The notes beneath the pieces were generated by a model. That model saw only the letters and a list, made by a program, of their open reading frames with translations. It ran no database searches and was not told the origin of the DNA. This document shows positions 5,349-35,514 of a stretch of 64,000 bases of DNA, in pieces. Positions within the stretch are counted from its first letter, which is position 1. Each line of letters opens with the position of its first letter. Source of the DNA: Asticcacaulis machinosus (lineage in GTDB: Bacteria > Pseudomonadota > Alphaproteobacteria > Caulobacterales > Caulobacteraceae); NCBI RefSeq assembly GCF_028550435.1, contig NZ_JAQQKV010000001.1:1364001-1428000 (forward strand), read 5' to 3'. Made by a program: the position numbers and the translations under genes.

Positions 5349-5496
5349 CTTAAGAACTCCCCCTGTTGCAGGGGGAGCTTTCTTTTAAGCCCAGCTTAAA
5401 AGAAAGAGGGGGTAATTACCCCACCACCACGCCGATAAATCGACGCGGTCCCCGGCACCGGCCGCCCCCCTCCCCTGCAACAGGGGAGGTTCTAAG
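5349..5496. repeat. GC-rich palindromic intergenic element, copy 1 (carA|carB)
   Basis: About 148 bases with matching inverted ends: CTTAAGAACTCCCCC at the left and GGGGAGGTTCTAAG at the right. Each end is also a local hairpin (CTCCCCCTG/CAGGGGGAG and CTCCCCTG/CAGGGGAG). A further arm pair, TTTCTTTTAAG/CTTAAAAGAAA, lies inside. The core holds CCCCACCACC and ACGCGGTCCCC, shared with the copies at 21.8 and 35.4 kb. No ORF, no transposase. The remainder of the gap (5497-5653) is AT-richer and precedes carB; no clear promoter was identified there. Confidence 0.85.
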
Positions 5497-5653
5497 TGAG
5501 ATTAACCAAACATAAAGGGTTGCTTTACGGCCCCCAAGGCTCTAAAGCACCCGCTTAGCCTACATCAAAAATGACCTGAAATGGTCGCCCGCCCGTAACC
5601 GGATTTGCGTTTTCGCTCATCCGCTATTTGCGCACGAAAGTATCAGAAGACCT

Positions 5654-8600
5654 ATGCCCAAACGTACCGATATTAAATCCATCCTCATTATCGGCGCCGG
5701 TCCGATCGTCATTGGTCAGGCCTGTGAGTTTGACTATTCCGGCGTTCAGGCCTGTAAGGCATTGCGCGAAGAAGGCTACCGGATCATTCTGGTGAACTCC
5801 AATCCGGCGACGATCATGACCGATCCCAATATCGCCGACGCCACCTATATCGAACCGATCACCCCTGATATTGTTGAGAAAATCATAGCCAAAGAGCGTC
5901 CCGATGCGCTGTTACCTACTATGGGCGGTCAAACGGCGCTGAACTGCGCGCTGGCGCTGGATGCCGCAGGCATCCTTACCAAATACAATGTCGAAATGAT
6001 CGGCGCCAAGGCCGAAGTCATCGATAAGGCCGAAGACCGCCAGAAGTTCCGCGACGCTATGGACAAGCTCGGCCTAGAGTCAGCCAAGTCGGCGGTCGCC
6101 CATAGCTGGGATGAGGCCGTGGCGGGCTTAGAGGCCATCGGCGGCCTGCCCGCGGTCATCCGCCCCAGCTTTACGCTGGCCGGCACCGGCGGCGGCATTG
6201 CCTACAATCAGGAAGAGTTTAAGGAAATCGTCGAACGCGGCCTTGACCTTTCCCCCACCACCGAAGTCCTGATCGAGGAATCCATCGTCGGCTGGAAAGA
6301 ATATGAGATGGAAGTCGTGCGTGACCGCGCCGACAACTGCATCATCGTCTGTTCCATTGAAAACGTCGATCCAATGGGTGTGCATACCGGTGATTCGATC
6401 ACCGTCGCTCCGGCCCTGACCCTGACCGACAAAGAATATCAGATCATGCGCTCGGCCTCGATCGCCGTCCTGCGCGAAATCGGCGTGGAAACCGGCGGCT
6501 CGAACGTGCAGTTCGCGCTCAACCCTGCCGATGGCCGCATGATCGTCATCGAGATGAACCCGCGCGTGTCGCGCTCTTCCGCTCTGGCCTCCAAGGCGAC
6601 CGGCTTTCCAATTGCCAAAATCGCGGCCAAGCTGGCGGTCGGCTATACGCTGGATGAACTGTCCAACGACATCACCAAGGTCACCCCGGCCTCGTTTGAG
6701 CCGTCGATCGACTATGTGGTCACCAAGATCCCGCGCTTTGCCTTTGAGAAATATCCGGGCTCTGAGCCCCTGCTCGGCACCTCGATGAAGTCGGTCGGTG
6801 AAGTCATGGCCATTGGCCGCACCTTTGCCGAGTCGGTACAAAAGGCCCTGCGCGGTCTGGAAACTGGCTTGTCCGGCTTTGATGAGGTCGATATCCCCGG
6901 CGTGAAAACGGCGGAAAGCGCCCATGCCGTGCGTGAAGCCGTGGTGCGTGAGCTGGGTCGCCCGACACCTGATCGTCTGCGCGTGATTGCTCAGGCTTTC
7001 CGTCATGGGTTGAGCGTCGAAGACATCAACGCCGCCTGTGCCTATGAGCCGTGGTTCCTGCGCCAAATTGAAACCATCGTCGCTGAAGAAGCCAAGATCA
7101 CAGCGCTTGGCCTACCCGCTGATGCCCATGCCATGCGCCTCCTTAAAGGCCTTGGTTTCTCCGATGCCCGTCTGGCGACTCTGACGCAACAGACCGAGGC
7201 CGAAGTGCGCAATGCCCGCCGCGGCTTAGGCGTGCGTCCGGTCTTTAAGCGCATCGACACTTGCGCGGCGGAATTTGCGTCGTCGACCGCCTATATGTAT
7301 TCGACCTATGAAACCGGCGCGCTCGGTCAGGTGCCGGAATGCGAAGCCGCCCCGTCCGACCGTAAGAAGGCCATTATTCTGGGCGGCGGGCCGAACCGGA
7401 TCGGACAGGGCATCGAGTTCGACTACTGCTGCTGCCATGCCGCCTTTGCGTTCAAGGACATCGACCTTGAAGCCATCATGGTCAATTGCAACCCTGAAAC
7501 CGTGTCGACCGATTATGATACTTCCGACCGCCTTTATTTCGAGCCGCTGACCGCCGAAGACGTGCTGGAGCTGATCAGCGTTGAAATGTCCAAGGGCGAA
7601 CTGGCCGGTGTGGTCGTCCAATTCGGCGGCCAGACCCCGCTTAAGCTGGCTCAGGCGCTTGAGGACGAAGGCATCCCTATTCTTGGCACCACGCCCGATG
7701 CGATTGATCTGGCCGAAGACCGCGAACGCTTTCAGCAATTGCTGAAAGAGATCGGCCTGCGCCAGCCGATCAACGCGATTGCCCGCTCCCCTGAAGAAGC
7801 CTTTAAGGCCTGCCACGAAGTCGGCTACCCTATCGTCATCCGCCCGTCCTATGTGCTGGGTGGCCGCGCCATGGAAATCATCCGCGACGATGAGCAACTG
7901 ACGCGCTATGTCACTGAGGCTGTTAAGGTTTCGGGGTCTTCGCCCGTCCTGATCGATCAGTATCTGTCGGCAGCGATTGAGGTCGATGCCGATGCGCTCG
8001 CCGACGGCGACACGGTGTTTGTGGCTGGCATCATGGAACATATCGAAGAAGCCGGCGTCCATTCCGGCGACTCGGCGTGTTCGCTGCCGCCGTTTTCACT
8101 CAAGCCCGAAACCGTCAAAGAGCTTGAGCGTCAGACGATCGAACTGGCCAGGGCGCTTAAGGTGCGCGGCCTGATGAACGTGCAGTTTGCGATCGAAAAC
8201 CCCTATACCGACCCAAAGATCTACGTGCTTGAGGTCAACCCGCGCGCCTCACGGACCGTGCCGTTCGTCGCCAAGACCCTGGGACAGCCTCTGGCCGGTA
8301 TCGCCGCCAAGGTCATGGCCGGTAAGCCCCTGTCGGGCTTTGGTCTGAAGCCGCGCGATTACCGCCATGTGGCCGTAAAAGAAGCCGTCTTCCCGTTTGC
8401 GCGTTTTGCCAATGTCGATACGGTGCTTGGCCCTGAGATGCGATCGACCGGCGAAGTCATGGGCCTTGACTGGGTGCGTGACGGCGAAGAGATGATCGAC
8501 GCGTTCTCACGCGCCTTTGCCAAGTCGCAACTGGGCGGTGGCACGGTTCTGCCGACATCGGGCACCGTGTTCGTTTCGGTCAAGGATCAGGACAAACCCA

Positions 8601-8950
8601 CCATTATCGAACCGGTCAAAACCCTGCTGGCACAGGGCTTTAAGGTCGTCTCGACCGGCGGCACCTGCGACTATCTGGCCGAACAGGGCGTTGCGGTTGA
8701 GCGCATCAAAAAGGTGCTCGAAGGCCGTCCTAACATTCTGGATGCTATGAAAAACGGTGAGATCCAGCTTCTGTTCAACACCACCGAAGGCAAGCAGTCT
8801 CTGGCCGATTCGTTCTCTATCCGCCGCACGGCCCTGATGATGAAGATCCCCTACTACACCACGGCCTCCGGGGCTGTGGCGGCTGCGCGGGCTATTGCGT
8901 CCGGCCGCAAAGAGGACCTCGACGTGCGATCCATTCAGGAATACGCATAG
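5654..8950 (+). CDS. carB: Carbamoyl-phosphate synthase large subunit
   Basis: 1098 residues, full length for the family (E. coli about 1073). Two homologous ATP-grasp halves: the first phosphorylates bicarbonate, the second carbamate. They are visible as paralogous N-terminal motifs ([19 protein letters not shown] near residue 12 and [18 protein letters not shown] near residue 575). The C-terminal ~140 residues form the MGS-like allosteric domain ([15 protein letters not shown]). Catalyses carbamoyl phosphate formation from glutamine-derived ammonia, bicarbonate and two ATP, with CarA. A strong terminator follows directly. The long gap to carA may mean separate transcription or processing. 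Confidence 0.97.
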
Positions 8951-8976
8951 TCCTTATTGCCGTTCAAAAATTAAAC

Positions 8977-9009
8977 CCTCCTGCGATGCGTATCGCGGGA
9001 GGTTTTTTT
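8977..9009 (+). terminator. Rho-independent terminator after carB
   Basis: Stem CCTCCTGCGAT (8977-8987) and ATCGCGGGAGG (8992-9002) with one G-T pair, four-base loop, followed by seven T. Confidence 0.9.
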
Positions 9010-9155
9010 ACACCGTCTTCCCCGGCTTCACGATTTCGTGTATGGTCGCGTGATCGGCAGGGCATTTATTTCGCACTTGCAAAATGTGATTTCACGGCAG
9101 CGATCGGCTTTGGTATGGCGGAGCGCTATTTTTAACCAAGGACATATTCGGTTTC

Positions 9156-11279
9156 ATGAACCTGCTGGAACGTGTGGATACTCTGCTGGGCGACAAAAAA
9201 GATCTGACCAAACAGATCGCACTGGTCGCCGCCCCCATCCTGATTTTCCTGTGGTTTTTTCATCCGGCCGTGCTCGACCCGACCAATGTAAGCTGGCTGT
9301 TCCAGAAAGACTGGGGCCAGCATGTGCTGGGTTGGCACGCCTTTCGTTATGGCGCTGATGGCTTCAACCATCAGAATTTGCTGGCTCACCCGACGGGTTT
9401 GAGCGTCATCTATACCGACTCCAATCCGCTGTTTGCCCTGCCGCTGAAGCTGATATCTCCGCTCCTGCCCGCCAATTTCCAGTATATCGGGCCGTGGTTC
9501 CTGTTCTGCATTTGCGCCCATTTTTATCTGGCCTATAAGCTGCTGGAGCGCCACGCCCCGTCATTTTGGGCGGCGCTTACCGGTGCCATTCTGCTGACGC
9601 TGGTGCCAACCCTATTCAACCGCATCATGCACGATACGCTGGTGGCACAATTCCTGATCCTGTGGGCGTTTTACATCTATTTCGAGATCAATGAGCCGCG
9701 CCGCAAAGCCATTCATTGGGCGATCATGCTGGGGGTGACGGGCTTTATTCACCCCTATATTCTGATCATGGTGCTGGCCCTGTGGGGCGGTGAGCAACTC
9801 CGCCGCGTCTGGCCGCAACTTATGACGCGTGAGTTCGTGCAGGTCGCCCGCACCGTCGGGGTGGCAATTCTCACCTTGCTGGCGCCCATCATTACGCTCG
9901 GCCTGTCAGGCGCCTATGCCGCAGGTCAAAGTGCGGGCAGCTTCGGCTATGGCTTCTATTCTATGGGCCTTGACGCCCTGTTCAATCCGGCACGTAAGGA
10001 TTTCACCTTCGGCGGTCTGGTCTCGGTGCCTCAGGACTCAGGGCAGGCGATGGAAGGCTTCATGTATATGGGCGCAGGGCTTTTGTTCCTGATCGTCGCC
10101 GCCACTGTGTTGTTTTACCGCTCAGAAAGCGCGCGCACTATTCGCGACACCCTGTTAAAATCGGTGTGGCTGATCGGGCCATTTGCGGTGTTGTTCATCA
10201 TTGCTTTGTCGAGCAAGGTGCAGTTCTACGACATTGAAATCTTTAAGTATGAGACGCCCAAGGCCCTCGACGGCGTACTGGGCATCATGCGGGCGTCTGG
10301 GCGGATGTTCTGGCCGATGGCCTATTTTATGGTGCTGCTGGCGATCCTGACCGTGTACCGCACCCGCCTCAAGACCGTGGCAATTATCCTGCCCTTGGCT
10401 CTGGTGATACAGGTCATCGACATCGCCCCGTTTGCCAAGTCGGTGCACTCCGAAACCGCGATGGCCGCCAACCGAACCGTCTATCAGAAGGTGCCGTCAA
10501 AGCTGTGGGACGACCTGATCACCAACTCTGATCTGGTGTCGTTTCAGCCCGCCAATGCCCACATCAATAAGCGCCTGTTTTATGAGCTAACCTGGCGCTC
10601 GGTGTCCCACGCCGTGCCGGTAAACACCATGTACGCGGCCCGTCCACATCCGCGCCAGACCCAGCTTGAGCGCATTGCTCACACCAATTTTGTGGAGGGT
10701 AAGCTCGATCCGAATACCCTCTATGTCTTTTTCAATAAGTGTCAGGCTCCGGCCGGCGCGCAGGCCCGTCTGCGCGAACTGGACGGCGTGTTTATCCTGC
10801 CACCGGTGAAGATGCTGGATAAACTGCCTGCCGATCCGCAGGTACCGGGTATCGAATACGGCGAAGACTATAACTTCACCTGGAACGCACAGGGCGCCTG
10901 CTTCCTTGAGGACAACTGGCTGTCGCCTGACTCAAAAGGCGTATGGAGCCGCGCCGGTCAACCGGCAGAGCTTAACCTGCCGCTGGCCGACCGACCACGC
11001 CATGACATCAGCCTGTCGATGAGCCTGTTAAGCTTCCTGAGCGGCAATAAAACAAAGGTTTATGTCAATGATCGCCTGCTGACGCACCTTGATCTTACGA
11101 CCCAGATCACCGACCATGAAATTGTCATTCCGCGCCGCTGGGTTAAGGGCAAATCCCTGAACATCCGCCTAGAGCCCGATATTGAGGCCTCGCTCAAGCC
11201 GTCGCCCAAAGCGTCTGCCAGCGCCCGCAAGCTCGGCATCCGGCTTTATGACCTGCGCCTGAGTGAAACCAAGGGCTGA
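9156..11279 (+). CDS. Multi-pass membrane protein, DUF6311-like, paralogue 1
   Basis: 707 residues. The first ~420 contain about ten to twelve hydrophobic segments separated by short loops; the rest is soluble and probably periplasmic, ending in a predicted beta-sandwich-like region. The N-terminal periplasmic loop has acidic/aromatic motifs (DWGQHVLGWHAFRYG, TDSNPLFALPLKL, FQYIGPW) that resemble the DUF6311 family, which has a GT-C glycosyltransferase-like layout. A role in transferring lipid-linked sugars at the cell surface is therefore an inference, not shown. AAGGA lies about 12 bases upstream of the ATG. A clear paralogue follows on the same strand after 151 bases. Confidence 0.75.
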   Translation: MNLLERVDTLLGDKKDLTKQIALVAAPILIFLWFFHPAVLDPTNVSWLFQKDWGQHVLGWHAFRYGADGFNHQNLLAHPTGLSVIYTDSNPLFALPLKLISPLLPANFQYIGPWFLFCICAHFYLAYKLLERHAPSFWAALTGAILLTLVPTLFNRIMHDTLVAQFLILWAFYIYFEINEPRRKAIHWAIMLGVTGFIHPYILIMVLALWGGEQLRRVWPQLMTREFVQVARTVGVAILTLLAPIITLGLSGAYAAGQSAGSFGYGFYSMGLDALFNPARKDFTFGGLVSVPQDSGQAMEGFMYMGAGLLFLIVAATVLFYRSESARTIRDTLLKSVWLIGPFAVLFIIALSSKVQFYDIEIFKYETPKALDGVLGIMRASGRMFWPMAYFMVLLAILTVYRTRLKTVAIILPLALVIQVIDIAPFAKSVHSETAMAANRTVYQKVPSKLWDDLITNSDLVSFQPANAHINKRLFYELTWRSVSHAVPVNTMYAARPHPRQTQLERIAHTNFVEGKLDPNTLYVFFNKCQAPAGAQARLRELDGVFILPPVKMLDKLPADPQVPGIEYGEDYNFTWNAQGACFLEDNWLSPDSKGVWSRAGQPAELNLPLADRPRHDISLSMSLLSFLSGNKTKVYVNDRLLTHLDLTTQITDHEIVIPRRWVKGKSLNIRLEPDIEASLKPSPKASASARKLGIRLYDLRLSETKG

Positions 11280-11430
11280 AAACAGTTCGCAATCCCTTGA
11301 ATTCTCAGTGTGCCCGGCTATAGTCGACGGGCATTGGGGGCGGGTTTAAATTACCGTAGCATTGTTGGGCTAAATCCAGCGAACTTCGTTTGCACGCCTG
11401 CATCCGTTCGCTGTTTTTAAGTCTGAGACC

Positions 11431-13515
11431 ATGCCTGATAATTCGTCTGCGCCCTACCATACGGTTCTGAAATTCACAGCCCCTATCCTGCTGTTTCTGC
11501 TGTTTTTTACGCCGGACATACTTGATCCGACCAATGTCGGCTGGCTGATGCGCGGCGACTGGGCGCAGCATTTTCTGGGCTGGCATGCCTATCGTAACGG
11601 CGCCGACGGCTTTAACCATCAGAACCTGCTCGGTTATCCCACGGGTCAGAGCGTTATCTACACCGACTCAAATCCGTTTCTCGCCTTTCCGTTCAAGCTG
11701 ATTTCCCCCCTGCTGCCCGATTATTTCCAATATATAGGCCCGTGGTTTTTGCTATGTATCTGCCTGCATTATTTTATTGCCTATAGGCTGGTGTCACGCC
11801 ATGCGCCGGGGCCGTGGTCAGCACTGGCCGGCGCGGTTCTGCTGACCCTATTGCCGACGCTTTTTGGGCGTATCGGCCACGATACGCTGGTGGCGCACTG
11901 GCTCATTCTCGGCGCAATTTATATCTTTTTTGAGGTTGATGGCGAAAAGCGCAAATGGATTGCCTACAGTGGGCTGCTGGCTCTGTGTGGGTTTATCCAT
12001 CCCTATATTCTGGTCATGGTTCTGGCGATATGGGGTGCTGACTGGTTGCGCATCCTTGGCCCGCAGTGGCAAACCAAGGACGTGAAGGGGCTTGGGGTTT
12101 CAGGCCTTAAAATGGCGGTGACCTTACTGGCACCCATTGTAGCTCTTGCGATTTCCGGCGCGTTTTCTGGCTCCAGCGCCAAAAGCGGCGGGTTTGGCCT
12201 CTATTCGATGGGGCTGGACGCACCGTTCAACCCGTCCAACAAATCCTTCATGCTGCCGTTCCTGTCGGTACAGCAGGACGAAGGACAGGCCTTTGAAGGC
12301 TTTCAGTATCTGGGCCTTGGGCTTTTGTTCCTGATCGGGGCGGCCATCTGGCTCTACCGTAAATCCGAAGAGTCACGCACCGTCAAAGAGATACTGATTA
12401 AGGCCAAACCGCTCAAATGGCCAATGATCGCGCTGCTGGTGCTGGCTATATCGCACAAGATCCAGTTTTATAACATATTGCTCTTAAAACTGCCCCTGCC
12501 GGATTTTCTTGAAGACCTGTTCAACATCGTGCGGGCCTCAGGCCGCCTGTTTTGGCCAATCGCCTATCTTATGGTGTTTCTGGCGCTGCTGACGCTGTAC
12601 CGGTCACGCCCGAAGACCATGACCATCGTCCTGTCCGCGGCCGTTGTTTTGCAATTCATGGATTTGTCAGGCTTTGCCACCCAGACCAAGGGCCTGACGG
12701 CGCGCGCCTCTGACCGGACCGTCTTCACCATCGCCAAAAGCCCTGAGTGGGATAAGCTGATCAAAGGCAGCGATCTGGTGTCGTTTCAAGCCCCTTCGGT
12801 CCATAGCAACCAGCCCCTGTTCTACGAAGTGACCATGCACGCCGTCTCCCATAAGGTGCCGGTCAATACTATGTATGCCGCCCGTGATAACCTCAAACAA
12901 TCGGCATTGGAGTATGAAGAATATAAGCGTTACCTGAACGGTCAGCTTAATCCGCACCACCTTTACGTCATGCTCAACAAATGCCCTGCCCCCAAAGGGG
13001 TGGAGCATCGTCTGCGCGAACTGGACGGCATCTGGGTCATTCCGCCCGCCGGGCTGGAAACCCGGCTCAAGACCATTCCGCAGGTGCCGACATTTGAGAT
13101 CAATAAACCCCACCCCATAACCTGGGACAGTCCGGCAGCGTGCCTGTTTGGTCAGGGCTGGCGGCTGCCGGAGCGGGTCGGCGTGTGGACCGAAGGGCCA
13201 AAGGCTGAGGTCAACATCTCCCTGCCGGCCCCCTCCCTCACCGCTATGACTTTGGATATCAATGCCCGCGCCATGAAGGCGGCTCAGGTCGATATCTATG
13301 CCAATGGTGTGCCGGTCGGCCGATTCGAAATGCCGAAAAAGGATGCCGACTATTCGGTCACTATTCCGCAAACCGTAGCGGCTCAATCTCAAACGCTGAA
13401 TATCCGCTTTGTGGTAACCCCGCCCCCCGAAGACTTAAAAAAGCCCCTACAGAAAGATCTGAAACCCGAACATTTACGGCTTAAGATTTCAAGTTTCACC
13501 CTCAAAAACACCTGA
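11431..13515 (+). CDS. Multi-pass membrane protein, DUF6311-like, paralogue 2
   Basis: 694 residues, the same architecture as the preceding gene and alignable over its whole length by eye: DWAQHFLGWHAYRNGADGF, TDSNPFLAFPFKLISPLLP and FQYIGPWFLL in the N-terminal part, SGRLFWPIAYLMV in the last membrane part, then a soluble half with SHKVPVNTMYAA and LYVMLNKCPAP matching the paralogue. A tandem duplication that has diverged well beyond recent copies. No strong ribosome binding site before the ATG. Likely a membrane glycosyltransferase-like or envelope assembly protein; substrate unknown. The gap to greA (13516-13747) has no gene. Confidence 0.75.
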   Translation: MPDNSSAPYHTVLKFTAPILLFLLFFTPDILDPTNVGWLMRGDWAQHFLGWHAYRNGADGFNHQNLLGYPTGQSVIYTDSNPFLAFPFKLISPLLPDYFQYIGPWFLLCICLHYFIAYRLVSRHAPGPWSALAGAVLLTLLPTLFGRIGHDTLVAHWLILGAIYIFFEVDGEKRKWIAYSGLLALCGFIHPYILVMVLAIWGADWLRILGPQWQTKDVKGLGVSGLKMAVTLLAPIVALAISGAFSGSSAKSGGFGLYSMGLDAPFNPSNKSFMLPFLSVQQDEGQAFEGFQYLGLGLLFLIGAAIWLYRKSEESRTVKEILIKAKPLKWPMIALLVLAISHKIQFYNILLLKLPLPDFLEDLFNIVRASGRLFWPIAYLMVFLALLTLYRSRPKTMTIVLSAAVVLQFMDLSGFATQTKGLTARASDRTVFTIAKSPEWDKLIKGSDLVSFQAPSVHSNQPLFYEVTMHAVSHKVPVNTMYAARDNLKQSALEYEEYKRYLNGQLNPHHLYVMLNKCPAPKGVEHRLRELDGIWVIPPAGLETRLKTIPQVPTFEINKPHPITWDSPAACLFGQGWRLPERVGVWTEGPKAEVNISLPAPSLTAMTLDINARAMKAAQVDIYANGVPVGRFEMPKKDADYSVTIPQTVAAQSQTLNIRFVVTPPPEDLKKPLQKDLKPEHLRLKISSFTLKNT

Positions 13516-13747
13516 AATCATAGCCTTAAGGCCCTCGCAATTTAAGGGGTTTAACCTTGCGGCAAAACACGATATAAGGCCGCCCCGGATGAAATCCCCC
13601 TTTGCGTTTTATACAGTTTTTAGTCGCGAAGATCGCTTGCAACCGGCATAAACCGTATCTATCTTTTCACTTCGGTCGTAGGCACCCTCGACCGGACGTG
13701 AAATCTTTTTTTTATTCCTCTGGGTGCATTTAAGAAATCAATCGCAC

Positions 13748-14221: not shown

Positions 14222-14281
14222 GCTGATCGCAAAAAAGTTTGAGGCTACGCCTCAATACATTTTTCGCGTAACATTAAAGGT

Positions 14282-14326
14282 CAAAGACTTGCTCGGGGCG
14301 GCCCGTCGCAAGTCTTTGGCTTTTTT
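14282..14326 (+). terminator. Terminator after greA
   Basis: Perfect 11-base stem CAAAGACTTGC (14282-14292) and GCAAGTCTTTG (14308-14318) followed by GC and six T. A smaller hairpin TTGAGGC-TAC-GCCTCAA (14239-14255) lies just after the greA stop. Confidence 0.9.
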
Positions 14327-14331
14327 AGTAA

Positions 14332-19864: not shown

Positions 19865-19932
19865 AGAGAAGAATACCCCCTCTTCGCATCGATAAATCGA
19901 AGCGAAGCTCCCCCTGCTACAGGGGGAATTCT
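19865..19932. repeat. Short member of the GC-rich palindromic element family
   Basis: Between dps and arfB. Contains CTTCGCATCGAT/ATCGAAGCGAAG, an imperfect internal palindrome, and CCCCCTGCTACAGGGGG ending in AATTCTTTAG, which resembles the right end of the larger elements (GGGGAGGTTCTTAG). The left end is degenerate (AATACCCCCTC), so this is a shortened or decayed copy. Confidence 0.6.
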
Positions 19933-20400
19933 TTAGGACAGTGTCGCCTTGATCATCCACAGGTGCTTTTCGTGGGCGGTCAGGCGTTGGGTGGCCAGAT
20001 CAGCCGACGACACATCACCGACCTCTTCCGACAGTTCGACCACGCTTTTTAAAGTCGCGATGACCGTCTCATGACCCGATTTCAGGTCTTTCAGCATCTC
20101 TTCGGATGAGAATGTCGGATCGCCATCCTTGATCGAGGTCAGGTTACCGAGCGCCGAACCCGACTGCGGGGCCAGTTCGCCAAGCGCGCGGATGCGTTCA
20201 GCAATATCGTCAATCGCGTTCCACATTTCGGTGTACTGCTCCATAAACAGGCTATGCAGCGACGAAAAGGTCGGGCCCGTCACGTTCCAGTGGTAGCCGT
20301 GAGTTTTCTGATACAGCGTATAGCTGTCGGCCAGAAGCTTCGACAGTTCGTGAGCTACTTTTTTGTCGTGATCGACAGCAGACGCTTTGGAAGCGGGCAT
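19933..20400 (-). CDS. dps: Dps family DNA-binding ferritin-like protein
   Basis: 155 residues, normal Dps size. Forms a dodecamer that oxidises and stores iron and protects DNA in stress and stationary phase. The ferroxidase and nucleation residues lie in HGYHWNVTGPTFSSLHSLF (residues ~36-54) and in the following EMWNAIDDIAERIRALG. A short Lys-containing N-terminus precedes helix A. Excellent ribosome binding site (AAGGAGAT) before the ATG. Divergent from the nadABC operon with a 256-base gap; arfB lies downstream on the same strand after a palindromic element. Confidence 0.95.
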   Translation of the reverse strand: MPASKASAVDHDKKVAHELSKLLADSYTLYQKTHGYHWNVTGPTFSSLHSLFMEQYTEMWNAIDDIAERIRALGELAPQSGSALGNLTSIKDGDPTFSSEEMLKDLKSGHETVIATLKSVVELSEEVGDVSSADLATQRLTAHEKHLWMIKATLS

Positions 20401-21778: not shown

Positions 21779-21788
21779 GGTTTGTCTT

Positions 21789-21944
21789 CAAAGAACCTCC
21801 CCTAATTTTAGGGGAGCCGGGCGGCCGGTGCCGATACCCCCGAAGGGGGGTGGTGGGGTTAAACCCGCTGAACATGAACCCCACCCGTCATCCGATCCTG
21901 ACGGATCGTCTGCCACCCTCCCCTCCCTGAGGGGAGGTTCTAAG
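21789..21944. repeat. GC-rich palindromic intergenic element, copy 2 (nadA|nadB)
   Basis: About 156 bases with inverted ends AGAACCTCCCCT and AGGGGAGGTTCTAAG, matching the carA|carB and 35.4 kb copies. Internal palindromes include CCCCCGAAGGGGG, GTGGGGTT/AACCCCAC and GATCCTGACGGATC. It starts 11 bases after the nadA stop and ends 34 bases before nadB. No ORF. Confidence 0.85.
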
Positions 21945-21978
21945 AAAACGCCCCTCTAAGGACAGTCTGGAGGCCCGC

Positions 21979-24413: not shown

Positions 24414-24456
24414 GCGCATTCCAAAAAGTGTGCAGCGGTTTTTGGATCAAATGCGC
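24413..24456 (+). repeat. Dispersed 44-base palindromic repeat, copy A
   Basis: Runs from AGCGCATTCC to GGATCAAATGCGC; the outer arms GCGCAT/ATGCGC and CCAAAAA/TTTTTGG are inverted. A second copy, inverted, is at 62524-62567 and differs at three of 44 positions. Similar palindromes are familiar in alphaproteobacterial genomes. It begins in the nadC stop codon. Confidence 0.85.
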
Positions 24457-24471
24457 GACAAAAAATGATCT

Positions 24472-26147: not shown

Positions 26148-26194
26148 ACAACCTCTTAAATATCCAACGCTGAGGCTGTGCAATAAGCGAGCCT

Positions 26195-26230: not shown

Positions 26231-26267
26231 AGTTGGCTCGAAAGAAACGCTTTAGGCTTACTCGAAC

Positions 26268-27260: not shown

Positions 27261-27288
27261 GTTGTTTCTCGTGTACATCTTAAATAAT

Positions 27289-29123: not shown

Positions 29124-29282
29124 AGAACCCCTTCCTCACTGGGCTCAACATGTTAGCTTTTGCAACAAAGGTCTAATTAAATCGCTGTAATGCGCATTAC
29201 CGTTTGTTTATGCGCAGTCCCACTTCCTTTGCACCGCCGCTGAAATCGTGAGATTTGAGTCAGATAATAGCCGACAAGCGCC

Positions 29283-29303
29283 GCAGGTAGACTAACTACC
29301 TGC
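29283..29303. other. Hairpin downstream of pgsA
   Basis: GCAGGTAG-ACTAA-CTACCTGC, 8 pairs. It follows the pgsA stop on the minus strand. No T run, so only a weak candidate for a 3' end or processing signal. Confidence 0.4.
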
Positions 29304-29342
29304 AAGCGCAGACTGCGTATTAGCTGGCCAAAGACCGCGATT

Positions 29343-29966
29343 TCAAATGTCGTGCTTGGCAGCGATAAAGTAGGCCGCTCCCGTCCAGACGGTGATGGCC
29401 GCGGCGATCCAGATCAACCAGTTAGCGATCAGGTCAACAATCGGGAGATGTGCCGGATCAAAGTCAAAGGCCCCCCAGCTTTGGGTCAGTAATAAAACGC
29501 CCAGCGCCACAAGCTGAATGGTCGTCTTCCACTTGGCCAGCAGGGTCACCGGCACGGCCACACCGCGACCGGCGGCGGCTTCACGCAGGGCGCTGACGGC
29601 AAATTCGCGAAACAGGATCAGGGCGGTCGGCAGGGCGATCACCGGCTGGGCGCCCAAAGCAAACAACCCAAGGATCGTGCCGCAGACCAGAATCTTATCG
29701 GCGATCGGATCAAGAATGGCGCCCCAGCGGGTTTCCGCGTGCAGTTTGCGCGCCAGATAACCGTCGGCGAAATCGGTCACCGAGGCCACCACAAAGGCGA
29801 CGCAGGCCCATCTTTGCATGGCAAACTGGTCATCGATGGTAAGATACGCGCTCAGAAACGGCACGCCCCCGGCTGCCCCGGCCAGCAGCACGAACATGAC
29901 CAGCCCGACCACCAGACGCACGGCCGTGATGGCATTAGGAATGGGGCTGACGGCTTCTTTGGTCAT
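29343..29966 (-). CDS. pgsA: CDP-diacylglycerol-glycerol-3-phosphate 3-phosphatidyltransferase
   Basis: 207 residues. Inner-membrane enzyme making phosphatidylglycerol phosphate, the committed step to phosphatidylglycerol and cardiolipin. The CDP-alcohol phosphotransferase motif is complete: DFADGYLARKL followed by RWGAILDPIADK, giving D-x2-DG-x2-AR-x8-G-x3-D-x3-D. About five membrane segments. The start at 29966 (MTKEAVSPIPNAITAVRL) matches the family and has AGGG upstream. uvrC is the next conserved gene upstream on the same strand, a neighbourhood common in proteobacteria. Confidence 0.94.
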   Translation of the reverse strand: MTKEAVSPIPNAITAVRLVVGLVMFVLLAGAAGGVPFLSAYLTIDDQFAMQRWACVAFVVASVTDFADGYLARKLHAETRWGAILDPIADKILVCGTILGLFALGAQPVIALPTALILFREFAVSALREAAAGRGVAVPVTLLAKWKTTIQLVALGVLLLTQSWGAFDFDPAHLPIVDLIANWLIWIAAAITVWTGAAYFIAAKHDI

Positions 29967-30030
29967 GGGGAATCCCTGCGATCTGAACTGGTTGTTCTTT
30001 TGGCATTTAATTACACTGCGCTCAAGACCC

Positions 30031-30059
30031 GCGCTCAAGGAACGAAGTGTTAGCGCAAC
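30031..30059 (+). repeat. Dispersed GCGCTCAAGG repeat, short variant
   Basis: GCGCTCAAGGAACGAA joined directly to GTGTTAGCGCAAC. It matches both ends of the 45-base copy just downstream, with the middle missing, which suggests an internal deletion. Confidence 0.75.
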
Positions 30060-30070
30060 AAAAAAACTCC

Positions 30071-30115
30071 GCGCTCAAGGGGCGAACTGGGCCGCCACTG
30101 CGGTGTTAGCGCAAC
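30071..30115 (+). repeat. Dispersed GCGCTCAAGG repeat, full copy
   Basis: 45 bases from GCGCTCAAGG through GGCCGCCACTGCGG to GTTAGCGCAAC. The inverse copy at 47465-47508 is nearly identical. Inner palindromic piece GGCCGCCACTGCGG; outer GCGC ends. Confidence 0.8.
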
Positions 30116-30404
30116 TTAATTTGGGCGAGCCTGTCTCACAATTGCACAACCGTAAGCGGGCATATGTCCCGCAAACGATGAGTCCGCGACAGGTAATGCG
30201 CTTACGCACCTATCCACAGGCGAATCCATCCGCCGGATTTTTATAAATATATCATAAAGATAGCGGGATTGGTCTTTATCAGGACGGTTTATCCCATAAG
30301 CGGACGGCGGCGGCCCGCTTTATGCACTTAAGGCACCAAATGGCCAAAACGGCGTGCAAACGTCTGACTGGCTTTAGGTTTTATGTCGAAAGGCCGGTAG
30401 TATC

Positions 30405-30632
30405 ATGTCGTTAATGTCCCCGTTCCACAACGAAGCGTCAACTGAGCGCCGCGACCATAGCTGGCTGGGCTGGGTATTTCTGGTCTCCTGGGTGGTTGTG
30501 ATCGCGCTGACGGTCATGGTTCACAAAACTGCAACTGATTTCACCCATGCCTACGCCCTGCCGGTTATCGCAGGCAGCCTGTGGATGTCGGTCTATCTGC
30601 TGTTCCTGACGCCGGACCTCAAGGCCGAGTAA
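30405..30632 (+). CDS. Small two-helix membrane protein
   Basis: 75 residues, unrecognised. A charged N-terminus (NEASTERRDHSW) leads into two hydrophobic segments (~20-40 and ~48-68), ending LFLTPDLKAE. Two starts are possible (ATG 30405 and 30414). Isolated between pgsA and uvrC, which it faces. Probably real, because the helices are typical and codon use is GC-rich at third positions, but function cannot be named. Confidence 0.6.
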   Translation: MSLMSPFHNEASTERRDHSWLGWVFLVSWVVVIALTVMVHKTATDFTHAYALPVIAGSLWMSVYLLFLTPDLKAE

Positions 30633-30646
30633 AGCAGACCTGAAAA

Positions 30647-32524
30647 TTAGCCGTGAAAATAGTCATATATTTTCTGCGCCATAGCGGCATTGATGCCTTC
30701 GATCTTCATCAGGTCTTCGACGCGGGCTTCACCCACTTCGCGGGCCGAGCCAAAGGCCTGTAGCAGGGCCCGCTTGCGGCGCGCACCGATGCCATCGATC
30801 TCATCCAGCGGGTTTTTAGTCATTGCGGCGGCCCGTTTCTGACGATTGGCGCCAATGGCATAACGGTGGGCTTCGTCGCGTAGCCGTTGCAGGTAGTACA
30901 AGACCGGCGACTTGGGCTCCATCATGAACGGCAGCCGCCCCGGCATGAAAAAGCGCTCCATGCCCGCATCACGATTTGGCCCCTTAGCGACACCGACGAT
31001 TTTGATATCGCTCATGCCCAATTCGTCCATGACCCCCAGCACGGCATCAAGCTGCCCCTGCCCGCCGTCGACCAGCACCAGATCCGGCCGCCCGAAACCT
31101 TCGTCTTCTGACGCATCGGCCGCGCGGTTCTTAAGGCGCAGGAACCGCCGGCGAAACACTTCGCGCATCATGGCATAGTCATCCCCCGCCACCGTATCGA
31201 GGTCGCGGATGGTGAATTTGCGGTACTGCCCCTTCATGAACCCTTCGGGGCCGGCCACCACCATGCCGCCAACGGCATGGGTACCACCCAGATGGGAGTT
31301 ATCGTAGATTTCGATGCGCGTCGGGGGCGTCTCAAGCCCAAAGATCTCCGCCACCCCTTGCAGCAGTTTGGATTGCGCCGACTGTTCCGCCATCCGCCGC
31401 CCCAGCGCCGCCTTGGCATTATTGAGCGCGTGCTGAACCACATCGAGCTTTTCACCCCGCTGCGGGCAGGTGATCTGCACCTTGCGCTCTGCCTTGAGAC
31501 TCAGCGCCTCCATCATCAGGTCGGGTTCGCTCAATCCATGAGACACCAGCACCAGCTTCGGCACCGGTTTGTCCTGATAGAACTGGCCCAGAAACGCATC
31601 AAGGATATCACCCTCAGAATCTGAGATATCAACCCGCGGGAAATAGGCCCGGTCGCCCCAGTTCTGCCCCGCCCGGTAAAACACACTCTGGACGCAGGCA
31701 TAGCCGCCTTCGGCATGGACGGCAAAGACATCGGCCTCGGCCTCGTTCAGCCCCACCGACGACGACATGACGACGTGATTTAGGGCCCGCATACGGTCGC
31801 GCAGATGAGCGGCGCGTTCAAATTCCATGTCCTCCGAGGCCCGCATCATGCGCGCCGACAGATCTTCGATCACCGCGCGGCTCTTGCCATTCAAAAAGGT
31901 CTGGGCCTGCTTGACGAGTTCACCATAAGCCTCAAGGCTGATTTCACCGGTGCAAGGTGCTGAGCAGCGCTTGATCTGGTGCAGCATGCACGGACGGGTG
32001 CGGCTGGCATAGACACTGTCGGTGCAGGTGCGCAGCAGAAACGCCCGTTGCAGGGTATCGAGCGTGCGGTTGACGGCCTGGGTCGAGGCAAACGGCCCGT
32101 AATATTCGCCCTTTATGCTGTGCGAGCCGCGATGTTTGGTGATCTGCGGCGCTTCGTGATCCTTGCGTACCAGTATCTCCGCAAAGGATTTATCGTCGCG
32201 CAAAAGGACGTTGTAACGGGGCTTCAGCGACTTGATCAGCCGCGCTTCAAGCAGCAGCGCCTCACCTTCGGTTTCGGTACGCACCAGCACCATCTCACGG
32301 GTCAGCGACACCATGCGGGCGATGCGGTTGGAATGGAACCGGCCTTGGGCGTACTGAAGGATACGTTTTTTTAAGCTCTTGGCCTTGCCGACATAGAGCA
32401 CCTCTGAGTCAGTACCGATCATGCGATAAACACCGGGCTTATCGGGGGCCAGGGCTGCCTCTTTGCGGATCAGTTCACCGCCGATCAGAAGCTCATTCAC
32501 GGCCTCAAGATCAATCGGCGGCAT
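30647..32524 (-). CDS. uvrC: Excinuclease ABC subunit C
   Basis: 625 residues from ATG 32524. Makes the dual incisions in nucleotide excision repair with UvrA and UvrB. N-terminal GIY-YIG nuclease domain ([26 protein letters not shown]), UVR motif near residue 210 ([10 protein letters not shown]), RNase H-like 5'-incision domain with DNSHLGG and [11 protein letters not shown], and C-terminal helix-hairpin-helix pairs ([25 protein letters not shown]). The open frame extends 45 codons further upstream, but that part translates the palindromic repeat and is not family-like, so it is rejected. Confidence 0.96.
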
Positions 32525-32873
32525 GATCGGCGTATCTTCCGGCAATGTCGGTTCGGTGGTCAATCGGGGTTCCTTATTCGGCTCCCTCTCCCCGCATGCG
32601 GGGAGAGGGCTGGGGTGAGGGGCACTTGCAGAGCGTGAAACTAGCGTCACAACCTGCAAGTATCGGCGCCGTTTTGCCCCTCATCCGACCTGAAGAAACG
32701 ATAATACCGTTTCGTCAGGTCACCTTCTCCCCGTGAACGGGGAGAAGGGAAAGACTCGAAGCTCATCAGATGGATAAATAAGCTGCACTTTGACCAATAC
32801 AATCTCTTTTTGTTCTCATCACGGCATTTTGCCCCTTGTCATTTTGGCCAAACCCGATACGGAGCGGCCCAGA
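32525..32873. other. Gap between uvrC and acyltransferase, mostly repeat
   Basis: 349 bases. The centre (32576-32758) is a set of GC-rich hairpins described separately. The rest has no convincing ORF or terminator. Promoters for the two divergent genes must lie here. Confidence 0.5.
32576..32758. repeat. GC-rich hairpin repeat between uvrC and acyltransferase
   Basis: Contains CCCTCTCCCCGC/GCGGGGAGAGGG (32583-32609), a central CCTGAAGAAACG/CGTTTCGTCAGG palindrome, and CTTCTCCCCGT/ACGGGGAGAAG at the right end. The architecture (two outer G/C hairpins and an inner one) resembles the other intergenic elements, but the end sequences differ, so it is a separate subfamily common in alphaproteobacteria. 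It creates the false N-terminal extension of uvrC. Confidence 0.75.
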
Positions 32874-33938
32874 ATGTCGACCGCGCACCCCGAAATCAAA
32901 TCCGAGATCAAAGCCCTGACCGGCCTGCGCGGGATCGCGGCCATCTATGTCGTGCTGTACCACATGACGGGCCATTACCGCTTTCCGGACGCCATTCGCC
33001 CGTTCATAAAGCACGGTTATATTTCCGTAGATTTGTTCTTTATCTTAAGCGGTTTCGTCATGGCCCTAACCTATGGCAAGCTGTTTATCGACGGAGTTAA
33101 GTGGCCGGACTATAAACGCTTTCTGCTGGTGCGCATCGCGCGGGTCTATCCACTTTATCTGTTGATGACTGTGATCACCGCGATCCTGATTGTGACGGTA
33201 CTGGGCAAGACCTACTTCCGCGAAGACCTTGTGCGCGCGATCCTGCCCAACCTGACCATGACCCAGGCGTGGGGACTGGCCAATTCGATCGTGCGCCCGA
33301 CCTGGTCGATCTCGACCGAATGGATGGCTTACCTGCTGTTTCCCCTGTTCGTATGGGGGGCCTTGCGGGTGCCGAAACGATGGGCAATGGCAGGCGTGGC
33401 GTTCAGTTTATGCGTTCTGGCCCTAATCGCCTTTGGCCCGACATTTTTGGCCAAAACCGAGCTTTTGCGCCGCACCGGCCCGCTTGATATCGCCTCCTCC
33501 TATGCGCCGGGGACCATGCTCAGGTGCCTGACCTCGTTTTTTATCGGTCTGGCCGCCTACAGGTTCAGGGATTATGTCAGCGCAAAATGGGTCACCCCGA
33601 CCGTCATCGCTATCCTTGCCCTTCTGCTGTGGCGCTTCAGCGACATCGCGCTGATTGCTCTGTTTATGGTGCTGATCATGGGCTTAAGCCACGATGAGGG
33701 ATCCATTGCCCGCGCCATCAATGTCAACTGGGTGCATGGGCTGGGGCTGTTATCCTATGCCATCTACCTGATCCACGACGCGGTGCTGTATCTGATGTTC
33801 AAGGCCGCCCCGCCCCTGCCTGGCCCCAAGGAGCTTTGGCTGATCATCAGCTTAGGTCTAATCATCGGCCTGTCGGCACTGGCTCACTATGGCTTTGAGG
33901 TGCCGTCGCGGCGCTATATCCGCAAATACGTCAAATAG
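32874..33938 (+). CDS. Acyltransferase family 3 membrane protein
   Basis: 354 residues from ATG 32874 (GGAG upstream). The family start is clear: IKALTGLRGIAAIYVVLYHM with the Arg-x10-His catalytic pattern, then VDLFFILSGFVMALTYG. About ten membrane segments. O-acetyl or other acyl transfer to an envelope glycan is the family role; the target is unknown. It shares only the fold with the 25 kb acyltransferase. Converges with the Nudix gene, two bases between stops. Confidence 0.88.
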   Translation: MSTAHPEIKSEIKALTGLRGIAAIYVVLYHMTGHYRFPDAIRPFIKHGYISVDLFFILSGFVMALTYGKLFIDGVKWPDYKRFLLVRIARVYPLYLLMTVITAILIVTVLGKTYFREDLVRAILPNLTMTQAWGLANSIVRPTWSISTEWMAYLLFPLFVWGALRVPKRWAMAGVAFSLCVLALIAFGPTFLAKTELLRRTGPLDIASSYAPGTMLRCLTSFFIGLAAYRFRDYVSAKWVTPTVIAILALLLWRFSDIALIALFMVLIMGLSHDEGSIARAINVNWVHGLGLLSYAIYLIHDAVLYLMFKAAPPLPGPKELWLIISLGLIIGLSALAHYGFEVPSRRYIRKYVK

Positions 33939-33940
33939 GA

Positions 33941-34414
33941 TTACCAAAGAGGGTCTGTCGGAAAGCCGCGCATGGCCTCATTGATCCGGTTCAGTGATCC
34001 GCGATTGGTATCTTCGGGCAGGTCGTCGATCGCAAAAAAATCGACATTCTTGATTTCCCCGTGTGAGGTCATGTCGCCCGCCTCAAACTGATCGACCCGA
34101 AACAGCAAGACATGATCGCCGGGAAAGAACAGCTCATTGGAGTGAACGGACAGCAGCTTCGGCGGCTCAAGCGCAATGACACCCGCCTCTTCCTTAAGCT
34201 CACGCACCACGGCATCGCCGGCCGTTTCGCCGGCATCGACGCCCCCGCCCGGCAGCCACCAGCCCTTGAGATAGGTATGCTCGACCAGCAATACCCGCTC
34301 ACGCTCATCAACCACCAGCCCGCGCACGCCTAAGGTCTTGCCCCGCGTCATGCGCGAATGGGCAAAGAACAAAGGCCGTGTGTAAGGCTCAACGACGCGT
34401 TTCCAGTCTTCCAT
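33941..34414 (-). CDS. Nudix hydrolase
   Basis: 157 residues. The Nudix box is complete at residues ~55-78 (GGVDAGETAGDAVVREL followed by KEEAGV), the Mg2+-binding pyrophosphatase signature. The N-terminal beta-sheet (TLGVRGLVVDERERVLLVEHTY) is typical. Substrate not predictable; nucleoside diphosphate derivatives are usual. Weak ribosome binding site. Confidence 0.9.
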   Translation of the reverse strand: MEDWKRVVEPYTRPLFFAHSRMTRGKTLGVRGLVVDERERVLLVEHTYLKGWWLPGGGVDAGETAGDAVVRELKEEAGVIALEPPKLLSVHSNELFFPGDHVLLFRVDQFEAGDMTSHGEIKNVDFFAIDDLPEDTNRGSLNRINEAMRGFPTDPLW

Positions 34415-34543
34415 GCAGGCTACTTTTTATCTAAATTATTATTTCAATCTTCATATAACATATAAAAAGACAACCCACCCGACGCAAGGCTTGTCACGGC
34501 TAAACGGTCGGGTTAAGGCAGTAACATAATCGTTTAGGAGATA

Positions 34544-34627
34544 ATGATGGTAGCCATCGGTGTTCTGTCCTGCTTTCTGGGTTTCATTGTGTTGCTGAAC
34601 CTCATCGATTTCGGTCGTATTGACTAA
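34544..34627 (+). CDS. Putative 26-27-residue membrane peptide
   Basis: Small ORF with two adjacent ATGs (34544 and 34547). AGGAG (34536-34540) is six bases from the second ATG, a near-ideal Shine-Dalgarno position. The encoded peptide is one hydrophobic helix (starting MVAIGVLSCFLGFIVLLN) with a short polar tail, IDFGRID. Its stop overlaps the TTG start of the reductase gene by eight bases, so it may be translationally coupled or serve as a leader. Not known to belong to a family. Confidence rests on the strong ribosome site and single helix. Confidence 0.5.
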   Translation: MMVAIGVLSCFLGFIVLLNLIDFGRID

Positions 34628-35381
34628 GACTGCCCGCAAATCGGCACTGGTAACGGGAGCGGCCAAGCGCATTGGCCGCGCCATTGCCTTTGAGCTGGCC
34701 CGTCAGGGATATGATATCGGCGTCCACTATGGTCGCTCCGACGCAGATGCGCGTAAGCTTAAAGATCAATTGTTGGCGCTGGGCGTCACAGCCGTGACCG
34801 TCCAGGCCGACCTGAGCGACACGGGCAGCGTCAAGGCTCTGCTGCCCAAGGCGGTCGAAGCGCTCGGCCCCATCAGCCTGCTGGTCAATAATGCCTCGGT
34901 CTTTGCCGATGACCGGCTGGGGTCGATGACCGAGGAAAGCTGGCAATCCCATATCGACACCAACCTTAAGGCGCCGATCCTGTTGTCGCAGGCCTTTGCC
35001 GCACAGGCCGAGGTGCCGGACGGCGCCTCGATCATCAACATCATCGACCAGCGGGTGCTGAAACCCTCCCCGCCGTTTTTCAGCTATGGCCTGTCCAAGG
35101 CGGGCCTGTGGCACGCCACGCGGACTTTGGCGCAGGAACTGGCGCCTAAAATCCGCGTCAATGCGGTCGGTCCCGGCCCGACCCTGCCGTCGATTCACCA
35201 GAGCGCCGAGGATTTTGCCGAGGAAGCCCGCTCGATCCTGCTGCAAAAGCCGACCACACCCGAAGAAATCGCCGCCGCCGTCGCCTATCTGGCGCAAGCG
35301 TCGTCTGTTACGGGACAGATGATCTGCGTCGATGGCGGCCAGCATCTTAACTGGCGCACCCCCGATATGGCGGGGCTGTAG
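34620..35381 (+). CDS. Short-chain dehydrogenase, pteridine reductase (PTR1/FolM) type
   Basis: 253 residues from TTG 34620. The cofactor motif is TGAAKRIG, the TGxxxRxG variant that marks pteridine reductases (Leishmania PTR1, E. coli FolM) and favours NADPH. The catalytic Tyr/Lys pair is in SYGLSKAG, with NNAS near residue 88. Likely reduces dihydropterin or biopterin to the tetrahydro form. Coupled to the tiny upstream membrane ORF. A palindromic element separates it from a PTPS/QueD-like gene and folB on the same strand, supporting a pterin role. Confidence 0.85.
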   Translation: MTKTARKSALVTGAAKRIGRAIAFELARQGYDIGVHYGRSDADARKLKDQLLALGVTAVTVQADLSDTGSVKALLPKAVEALGPISLLVNNASVFADDRLGSMTEESWQSHIDTNLKAPILLSQAFAAQAEVPDGASIINIIDQRVLKPSPPFFSYGLSKAGLWHATRTLAQELAPKIRVNAVGPGPTLPSIHQSAEDFAEEARSILLQKPTTPEEIAAAVAYLAQASSVTGQMICVDGGQHLNWRTPDMAGL

Positions 35382-35514
35382 CTTAAGAACCTCCCCTGAT
35401 TTAAGGGGAGGATGTCACGTAGTGACAGGTGGGGTTAACCTCACTTTCAGCGCCGAATTAACCCCACCACCGCTAACGCGGTCCCCCTCCCCTAAAATTA
35501 GGGGAGGTTCTTAG
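35382..35514. repeat. GC-rich palindromic intergenic element, copy 3 (reductase|PTPS)
   Basis: 133 bases: left end CTTAAGAACCTCCCCT, right end AGGGGAGGTTCTTAG. Core GTGGGGTTAAC and AATTAACCCCACCACC plus CGCTAACGCGGTCCCCC. It starts in the base after the reductase stop codon. Confidence 0.88.

Follow-up and report, generated by a model that had tools for sequence, protein, structure and literature searches.

Palindromic elements that lie between consecutive genes raise the question of what they are and how they came to be there. A sequence-only reading of the window, the whole 64,000-nucleotide stretch of Asticcacaulis machinosus DNA analysed here, had described three such elements, each separating genes that it placed in one pathway, and had proposed non-autonomous mobile elements or mRNA hairpins. 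The host is an Asticcacaulis close to A. endophyticus.

Palindromes in the window

All three palindromes were borne out, with the coordinates first listed correct to within a few bases and a size of about 130–155 bp each:

5349..5496, no strand: element A, between the carA stop (5346) and the carB start (5654)
21789..21944, no strand: element B, between the nadA stop (21778) and the nadB start (21979)
35382..35514, no strand: element C, separating the SDR gene (stop at 35381) from the PTPS gene (35579)
35387..35411, + strand: left end hairpin of C, GAACCTCCCCT..AGGGGAGG (C1:1399387-1399411)
35486..35510, - strand: right end hairpin of C (C1:1399486-1399510)

Each consists of an outer stem with inner arms; folded on each strand, the native sequences alone formed one long stem of this kind, at -79.7 to -90.3 kcal/mol. 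Terminal inverted repeats were present in the folds and alignments of elements of this type. The half-element model, R1, matched each palindrome twice, once per strand (A, 5350-5417/+ and 5414-5496/-; B, 21789-21864/+ and 21873-21944/-; C, 35383-35440/+ and 35456-35514/-). Common ends and a common core had also been claimed, and two details of these were corrected: A is a heterodimer with a 5-C half on the left (CTCCCCC) and a 4-C half on the right (CTCCCC), and the core of B is GGTGGTGGGG on the + strand. The palindromes A, B and C exceed chance, and the end palindrome CTCCCCTN6AGGGGAG with at most two mismatches occurred four times in the window compared with 0.20 expected, a count reached in none of 100 shuffles. 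No family reached the gathering score in an Rfam scan of the window.

Among the shorter relatives that had been suggested, one proved to be a real half, while the R1 scores of the other two were not significant by themselves:

19871..19935, - strand: half element of 5-C type, directly 3' of a ferritin-like gene (R1 29.5 bits, E 1.9e-6)
48609..48663, - strand: weak relative with TATAC ends, a sister family by eye (R1 14.2 bits, E 0.1)
49966..50029, - strand: very weak relative with TTCTCC ends, a sister family by eye (R1 12 bits, E 0.5)

A half like that at 19871-19935 was found in two related genomes (G020 and G017) and was missing from a third (G005).

Neighbouring genes and genome-wide distribution

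The genes and putative promoters next to elements A and C were as follows:

4156..5346, + strand: carA (PF00988/PF00117)
5520..5561, + strand: putative promoter-like block 5' of carB, TTGCTTTACG..CTCTAAAGCACCCGCTTAGCC
5654..8950, + strand: carB (PF02786)
35515..35544, + strand: putative promoter-like block 5' of PTPS, TTTGACA..GGATTTAGC

The genes at carA|carB and nadA|nadB do belong together, but PTPS is preceded by a short-chain dehydrogenase (SDR) of generic type. This SDR did not adjoin PTPS in 20 of 24 relatives, and despite its absence there the TTGAC promoter-like block 5' of PTPS was kept in all 25 genomes. The carB block occurs in the genome studied. Of 15 Asticcacaulis loci, seven have it, including two in which carA and carB are separated by other DNA; in the remaining eight it was not found. 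Because of these promoter-like blocks, element C is taken to lie where one transcription unit ends, not inside an operon, and the same probably holds for element A. The nadA|nadB gap looks like a true operon gap.

R1 placed elements at no fewer than 92 sites in the genome, comprising 129 halves (144 model matches less 15 short antisense readings of other halves); this is a lower bound because scoring covered only 150 of the 1056 candidates from the first look. Thirty-one halves were read by eye, and 22 of these were taken into the next step. The 92 places were distributed between co-directional genes (64), convergent genes (25) and divergent genes (2), with one inside a gene. About five of 14 tight co-directional gaps with an element join obviously linked genes, judged from Pfam names. 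On this census there is no rule that the palindromes separate genes of the same pathway, and the idea that they mark gaps inside pathways was rejected on the census together with the promoter-like blocks.

Gain, loss and replacement at orthologous sites

Orthologous gaps were compared where both flanking genes could be located, in the same orientation and close together. Site C was empty in four close relatives (G005, G013, G017 and G020; junctions read in three), and at this single clean site no target-site duplication was found, and some 11 bp present at empty sites were missing. Element A was also present in A. endophyticus (L023), and the carA-carB gap of A. tiandongensis (L031) was short, at 140 bp, and without it. 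The nadA|nadB gaps of other species were short or held different palindromes. Palindromes at orthologous 3' ends were thus gained, lost and replaced between relatives, and in one gap (L208 gap 7) the halves of a single element came from different families. The proposal of a non-autonomous mobile element is supported by the empty sites, by different elements at one site in different species and by a partner element that shares the ends and carries an ORF (see below).

Two conventional movers were considered. The elements could be MITEs of the classical kind, belonging to a so far unseen insertion sequence whose DDE transposase recognizes AGAACCTCCCC ends, and their terminal inverted repeats, many copies and ORF-less as well as ORF-bearing forms are in keeping with this. 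However, there is no target duplication at site C, hybrid elements have differing ends, and the ORF between the ends encodes a PD-(D/E)XK-type nuclease, so that this origin appears very improbable. Alternatively, they could be palindromic dimers of a REPIN/RAYT-like system that once depended on a Y1 tyrosine transposase, now lost. The inverted hairpin pairs, able to fold as one long stem, and the solo hairpins, as possible decay products, are in keeping with this, but a profile search for the Y1 transposase (Y1_Tnp, PF01797) gave no match in the genome studied (G000) and matches in four of 25 genus genomes, none of them among the five richest in R1 matches (G000, G018, G014, G012 and G020). 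Y1/RAYT was rejected as the mover on the lack of a match in the genome studied; this explanation, already disfavoured, is the least probable of those weighed here.

ORF-bearing copies encode a DUF559 nuclease

Some copies have an ORF of about 121 codons between the same two halves, which encodes DUF559, a Vsr-like nuclease. Two such copies are present in the genome studied (C2:424537-425040 and C3:85186-85687), with Pfam E-values of 1e-26 and 1e-25 and PF04480 scores of 90.2 and 93.4 bits compared with a gathering cut-off of 20.6. In the examples read, the ORF fits between the two cores.

The association was quantified for 133 distinct DUF559 ORFs, 119 short (mostly from Caulobacteraceae) and 14 long, from loci that were best-scoring matches or chosen rather than a random sample; two apparently frame-broken copies, L296 and L367, are each represented by two ORFs, and all three ORFs of L285 have repeats in common. 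The flanking inverted-repeat score was at least 15 for 75 of the 119 short ORFs and at least 18 for 67, and was at least 15 for none of the 14 long ORFs; 12 of the long ORFs had a palindrome upstream. The same thresholds were reached by five and two of 335 control genes, and among 100 short control genes taken from regions rich in elements none reached a score of 15. Two sets of random windows gave 14 of 833 and four of 368 at a score of 15, and ten and none, respectively, at 18. A two-sided repeat was missing from 44 of the 119 short ORFs, some of which are fragments, and from 20 of 30 loci in a class sample. By hand count, the ORF stop lay -12 to +11 nt from the inner right repeat edge in 29 of 43 repeat-bearing Asticcacaulis loci.

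The nuclease and the arm families co-varied, with r=0.44 across 74 loci and r=0.45 across 42 Asticcacaulis loci (0 of 2000 permutations), and r=0.16 for pairs less than 60% identical (2 of 2000 permutations). Orthologous loci and shared descent account for part of this co-variation. The continuous measure was preferred because a crude arm-class label gave a weak neighbour test (same class in 29 of 42; shuffled mean 18.2, maximum 30). Values of dN/dS were 0.07–0.21 in ten pairs of 5-C type ORFs, with some dS saturated, and on these substitution ratios purifying selection acts on the ORF of this one type. The G-tract core is the ribosome-binding site of DUF559 in the six 5-C copies listed; as a universal DUF559 ribosome-binding site it was rejected, with a G-rich or Shine-Dalgarno-like motif in only 30 of 69. 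One genome (G006) had eight R1 matches and no DUF559 match in the genome profile search, and counts of DUF559 per genome may miss some members because the same search missed E. coli YcjD (E 1.4e-49).

DUF559 genes were present in Caulobacter and in E. coli K-12. Six residues (E20, D49, E60, H66, D62 and D75) were invariant in all 14 of the chosen DUF559 sequences, and in our mapping E20, D62, H66 and D75 would be the E..D..H..D residues of the EDxHD type. Matches in the PDB included a solved homologue, 3hrl (E 3.5e-32), and a 'mobile intron protein', 3r3p (E 2.3e-4), which we take to be I-Bth0305I. At chosen named DUF559 loci a palindrome was seen by eye on at least one side in 14 of 14, with a two-sided repeat in only three. 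The stop of ycjD, which lies between sapF and fabI, falls inside a decayed CCCTCTCCC palindrome (flanking score 8), and in K-12 this palindrome is on the 3' side only. The enterobacterial CCCTCTCCC..GGGAGAGGG repeats are presumably box C. At the sapF-fabI site, ycjD is reported to be present in some E. coli lineages only (PMC12817139).

Placement against stop codons and a possible 3'-end role

Random placement, which would have spoken against the sequence-only reading, was looked for genome-wide and was not found, because the placement of elements is strongly non-random, the rule being position against stop codons. Of the 76 cases in which an element half faced a stop codon, 57 had the element end -5 to +15 nt from it; another 38 stop-facing sides lacked such a half and were excluded. 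For two-ended co-directional copies the proportion was 19 of 25, compared with a null mean of 11.8 and a maximum of 18 in 5000 draws.

Such abutment on stop codons is in keeping with the view that these are ordinary repetitive extragenic palindromes with a 3'-end role, as terminators, mRNA stabilizers or ribosome-stalling hairpins, and that the DUF559 genes are passengers in repeat-rich gaps. Palindromes are indeed common beside other genes: in regions fetched around elements, 160 of 338 genes of this genome had one on at least one side and 18 on both, and adjacency on one side is weak evidence because such palindromes are common in gaps. T-tract terminators were rarer at 3' ends with an element, both convergent (4 of 50 compared with 13 of 42 without) and co-directional (12 of 62 compared with 31 of 108), in a scan that is biased because the element itself fills the 110 nt covered. 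In the genome studied, an element stands at L208 gap 2, a position at which an intrinsic terminator is present in three relatives. In addition, REPs in E. coli are reported to lower translation when they lie no more than 15 nt from a stop codon (PMC12306157). That the elements are terminators has this one clear replacement and the rarer T-tract terminators on its side, but the scan is biased, and a terminator function was kept as a possible side role and not as the general explanation. The passenger view is set against the matched two-sided repeats of 75 of 119 short DUF559 ORFs and none of 100 short control genes, the stop codons of DUF559 mostly at the inner repeat edge, and the co-variation of nuclease and arm families; we regard it as unlikely, though well ahead of the two conventional movers.

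A proposed mechanism and its meaning

The explanation that we favour, and consider fairly likely, involves a modular element in two forms. One form carries, between the two inverted halves, an ORF for a small DUF559 nuclease of the Vsr-like PD-(D/E)XK type; the palindromes would be relatives of it that lack the ORF, and the nuclease would spread or replace the elements. The elements of the window were probably mobilized by DUF559 elements, and the family as a whole may spread such palindromes, because palindromes and nuclease-carrying elements have the same two ends. The nuclease would act on the palindrome as a cruciform or hairpin, and repair of the break, copied from another palindrome, would spread or replace the element in the manner of homing endonucleases. 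ORF-less copies would be moved in trans and would survive where they are least harmful, directly 3' of a stop codon, where they may double as 3' hairpins or supply a Shine-Dalgarno-like GGGGAGG to the next gene.

A 2013 survey of CGTC-type palindromic repeats, which are common in alphaproteobacteria, did not settle which enzyme mobilizes them (PMC3733652). If short DUF559 nucleases move such palindromes, a family labelled 'unknown function' or 'Vsr-like repair' gains a role and many intergenic repeats, some of them inside operons, gain an origin; a number of genes now annotated as repair nucleases might then belong to mobile elements. A wider and distinctly more tentative proposal, which we hold to be possible rather than probable, is that short DUF559 genes form a distinct class of mobile element, with a Vsr-like nuclease homing into hairpin-forming palindromes. 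Their ORF-less copies would explain a large share of the CTCCC-type intergenic repeats in Proteobacteria, CGTC REPs and enterobacterial CCCTCTCCC repeats perhaps among them, and similar palindromes in Deinococcus, and arms would be exchanged between families, so that one site is re-colonized by different elements across species.

Comparison with known systems

REPIN/RAYT (TnpA-REP) systems comprise intergenic inverted palindrome pairs and solo copies, with a Y1 HUH transposase as the enzyme. The elements described here resemble them in the pairs, in the solo copies and in having a nuclease gene with these repeats on either side, but the enzyme is a Vsr-like PD-(D/E)XK protein. GTAG, the tag at the foot of REPIN hairpins, was seen only inside arm loops in the 31 halves read by eye. 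Set beside MITEs, the partner that has the same ends encodes DUF559 and not a known transposase, and in contrast to a classical transposon the two halves of one element can differ in family.

CGTC-tagged REPs are reported to be commonest in alphaproteobacteria, to form head-to-head dimers between co-directional or convergent genes, to have stems of 8-9 bp starting with A-T pairs and to 'apparently lack a dedicated transposase' (Di Nocera 2013, PMC3733652). The elements here are similar in their dimer form and gene context. Some inner arms read CGTC-hairpin-(G)CCA by eye (L005, L381), and the 8-9 bp stem starting with A-T pairs was not seen in the few CGTC arms so read. The EDxHD homing endonucleases, such as I-Bth0305I (PMC3943268), are alike in being small mobile ORFs with site occupancy that varies among relatives, and in the nuclease domain if 3r3p is that enzyme; the DUF559 ORFs differ in being short, palindrome-flanked, outside introns and inteins and without an added DNA-binding region. 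E. coli YcjD with its CCCTCTCCC..GGGAGAGGG repeats shares an ORF stop inside such a palindrome and differs in the one-sided arrangement of K-12. The E. coli REPs near stop codons (PMC12306157) are alike in position and differ in sequence and length.

Architecture and genome-wide distribution of the elements

The three palindromes that the sequence-only reading had placed in the window, between carA and carB (element A), nadA and nadB (element B) and the SDR and PTPS genes (element C), were present as described, and their end palindrome was above chance. In all three, two end palindromes (CTCCCCT..AGGGGAG) form the outer stem. Enclosed by it are, in order, a variable hairpin, a core with a G-tract that usually ends in TTAA, a loop, the core in inverted form and another variable hairpin. 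Sixteen elements (15 from the own genome and one from A. endophyticus) yielded 31 core-bearing halves and a single coreless one. By eye, the end of 29 of the 31 had as many Cs (4, 5 or 6) as the core of that half had Gs. Left and right halves of one element can differ in type, as in element A.

The sequence-only reading had also proposed a search of the full genome. A covariance model of one half (R1) gave 144 matches there, clustered into at least 92 places. Matches with E≤1e-6 occurred in 15 of 25 Asticcacaulis genomes, the own genome included. Among the matches listed, places were dense at 84-109 kb of contig C3 and 78-154 kb of contig C4, and none fell in G000:C1:30476-556748 of the own genome (G000), an absence that may be only apparent.

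Placement relative to genes

With gene calls from a custom script, the 92 listed places were co-directional (64), convergent (25), divergent (2) or inside a gene (1); unoccupied gaps of at least 40 nt in the same regions were co-directional (120), convergent (24) or divergent (56). Halves facing a stop codon lay at -5 to +15 nt from it on 57 of 76 sides, a count that excludes 38 further stop-facing sides without a recognised half, while ends facing a start codon were as a rule more distant (45 sides). Of the 25 co-directional copies with both ends recognised, 14 left no more than 35 nt of the gap free on either side. Pfam names suggested linked neighbours in about five of these 14, and did not do so for pairs such as DnaJ and DapB.

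Linked gene pairs around tightly filled gaps (basis: Pfam names)
CobS and CobT
ABC permease and ATPase
molybdopterin oxidoreductase and tetrapyrrole methylase
two phage-tail genes
two DUF885 paralogues

One copy (L199:10284-10436; G000:C3:92349-92486) separates a phage tail-completion gene from a tail-tube gene; since it sits between two phage-tail genes, prophage-like operons also host the element.

DUF559 genes between the halves

Two longer copies in the own genome (C2:424537-425040 and C3:85186-85687) contain an ORF between their halves, in both cases DUF559 (PF04480). DUF559 had 10 matches in the own genome. Genomes with at least one match numbered 23 of 25 in Asticcacaulis, 76 of 99 sampled in the family and, weak matches included, 64 of 190 in the class. 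Among loci that were best-scoring matches or hand-picked, not a random sample, flanking inverted repeats scored ≥18 for 40 of 71 ORFs in a first set and ≥15 for 75 of 119 short ORFs compared with 0 of 14 long ORFs in the full set; in the class sample 10 of 30 scored ≥15. A score of ≥15 was reached by 5 of 335 control genes (two of them ≥18), 0 of 100 short control genes, and 14 of 833 and 4 of 368 random windows. Protein identity co-varied with arm similarity. Ten pairs of one type had dN/dS of 0.07-0.21, and dS was saturated in most other pairs. The long ORFs (L274-L280, L283, L289, L290, and L281, L321, L327, L343) measured 885-1068 nt (ten) or 456-537 nt (four) from the domain start; a C-tract palindrome lay upstream in 12 of the 14 and downstream in none.

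DUF559 is likely a nuclease, because it has invariant residues (E20, D49, E60, D62, H66 and D75) and matches 3hrl, PvuRts1I and a mobile intron protein. DUF559 elements may spread from palindrome to palindrome in a homing-like manner.

Occupied, empty and replaced orthologous sites

At a site on contig C3, the DUF559 element had the same orientation in the own genome and the close relative G017, where it appeared frame-broken, and the opposite orientation in G013; G005 and G020 had a solo end hairpin only. Recombination between the ends may have removed the element, or the element may have entered a hairpin that was already there; the pattern fits both.

The sequence-only reading had proposed comparing orthologous gaps for empty sites with target duplications. 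At site C, four close relatives had a 69-75 bp gap without the element; at the junctions of three relatives there was no duplication, the element standing in place of their CCCTCACATTA. At site B (window 21779-21978; orthologues L210-L235), 15 of 24 relatives had, by eye, a palindromic element, these elements belonging to several families, and the remaining nine had none; G005, G013 and G017 had a 60-bp gap holding a small hairpin. The nadA-nadB gap is a hot spot, occupied in apparently independent events.

Host CarA is 94% identical to that of A. endophyticus and of Asticcacaulis sp. UBA2476. Site A held the same element in A. endophyticus, a different element in G017, 513 bp filled with other DNA in G020, and a 140-bp gap without an element in A. 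tiandongensis. The UBA2476 gap (L022:3836-4753) contains a 241-codon open frame and, of the palindrome, only a right end that looks decayed.

Across a 17.7-kb stretch, one gap that measures 5 bp in both G005 and G017 contained elements of 125-131 bp in the own genome, G013 and G020, that of G020 being from a sister family. Four of five divergent gaps in this stretch were near-constant in length (226, 82, 155 and 340 bp) and the fifth (L208 gap 8) was variable; some divergent gaps of the window differed by up to about 100 bp.

Two other features of the window were recorded. At 24414-24460, behind the 3' end of a gene, stands a repeat of another kind (GCGCATTCCAAAAAGTGTG..TTTTTGGATCAAATGCGC) that is absent from G005, G017 and G020; a similar repeat lies behind window position 37010 in those three genomes and is absent in the own genome. 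A 506-codon ORF at 2485-4005 is atypical in its codon usage, matches no Pfam family and was possibly acquired.

Breadth beyond Asticcacaulis and known systems

The plasmid database gave 38 and 34 records with a DUF559 match. In 14 records picked for spread, a C-tract/G-tract palindrome was seen by eye on at least one side of every DUF559 ORF, and three had a two-sided repeat scoring ≥15. The S. parapaucimobilis DUF559 genes lie in the sufB-sufC gap and between two transhydrogenase genes.

Two-sided repeats in the chosen records
S. meliloti, score 104
Deinococcus proteolyticus, score 48.5
Sphingomonas parapaucimobilis, score 23

No link between DUF559 and palindromic repeats appeared in the titles and abstract openings searched; preprints and most subscription journals lay outside this search, and a prior report may exist. 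A 2013 survey describes CGTC REPs as without a known transposase (PMC3733652). A Caulobacter DUF559 protein has been named VsrA and proposed to be a mismatch-repair enzyme (PMC12907096). E. coli K-12 ycjD, between sapF and fabI, is itself DUF559 (E=1.4e-49); a two-sided repeat was not found around it (score 8). Its stop codon lies inside a decayed palindrome, CCCTCTCCCTGAAAGAGCGAGG, with a second palindrome after it, and YcjD was earlier assigned to the PD-(D/E)XK superfamily (PMC1189080).
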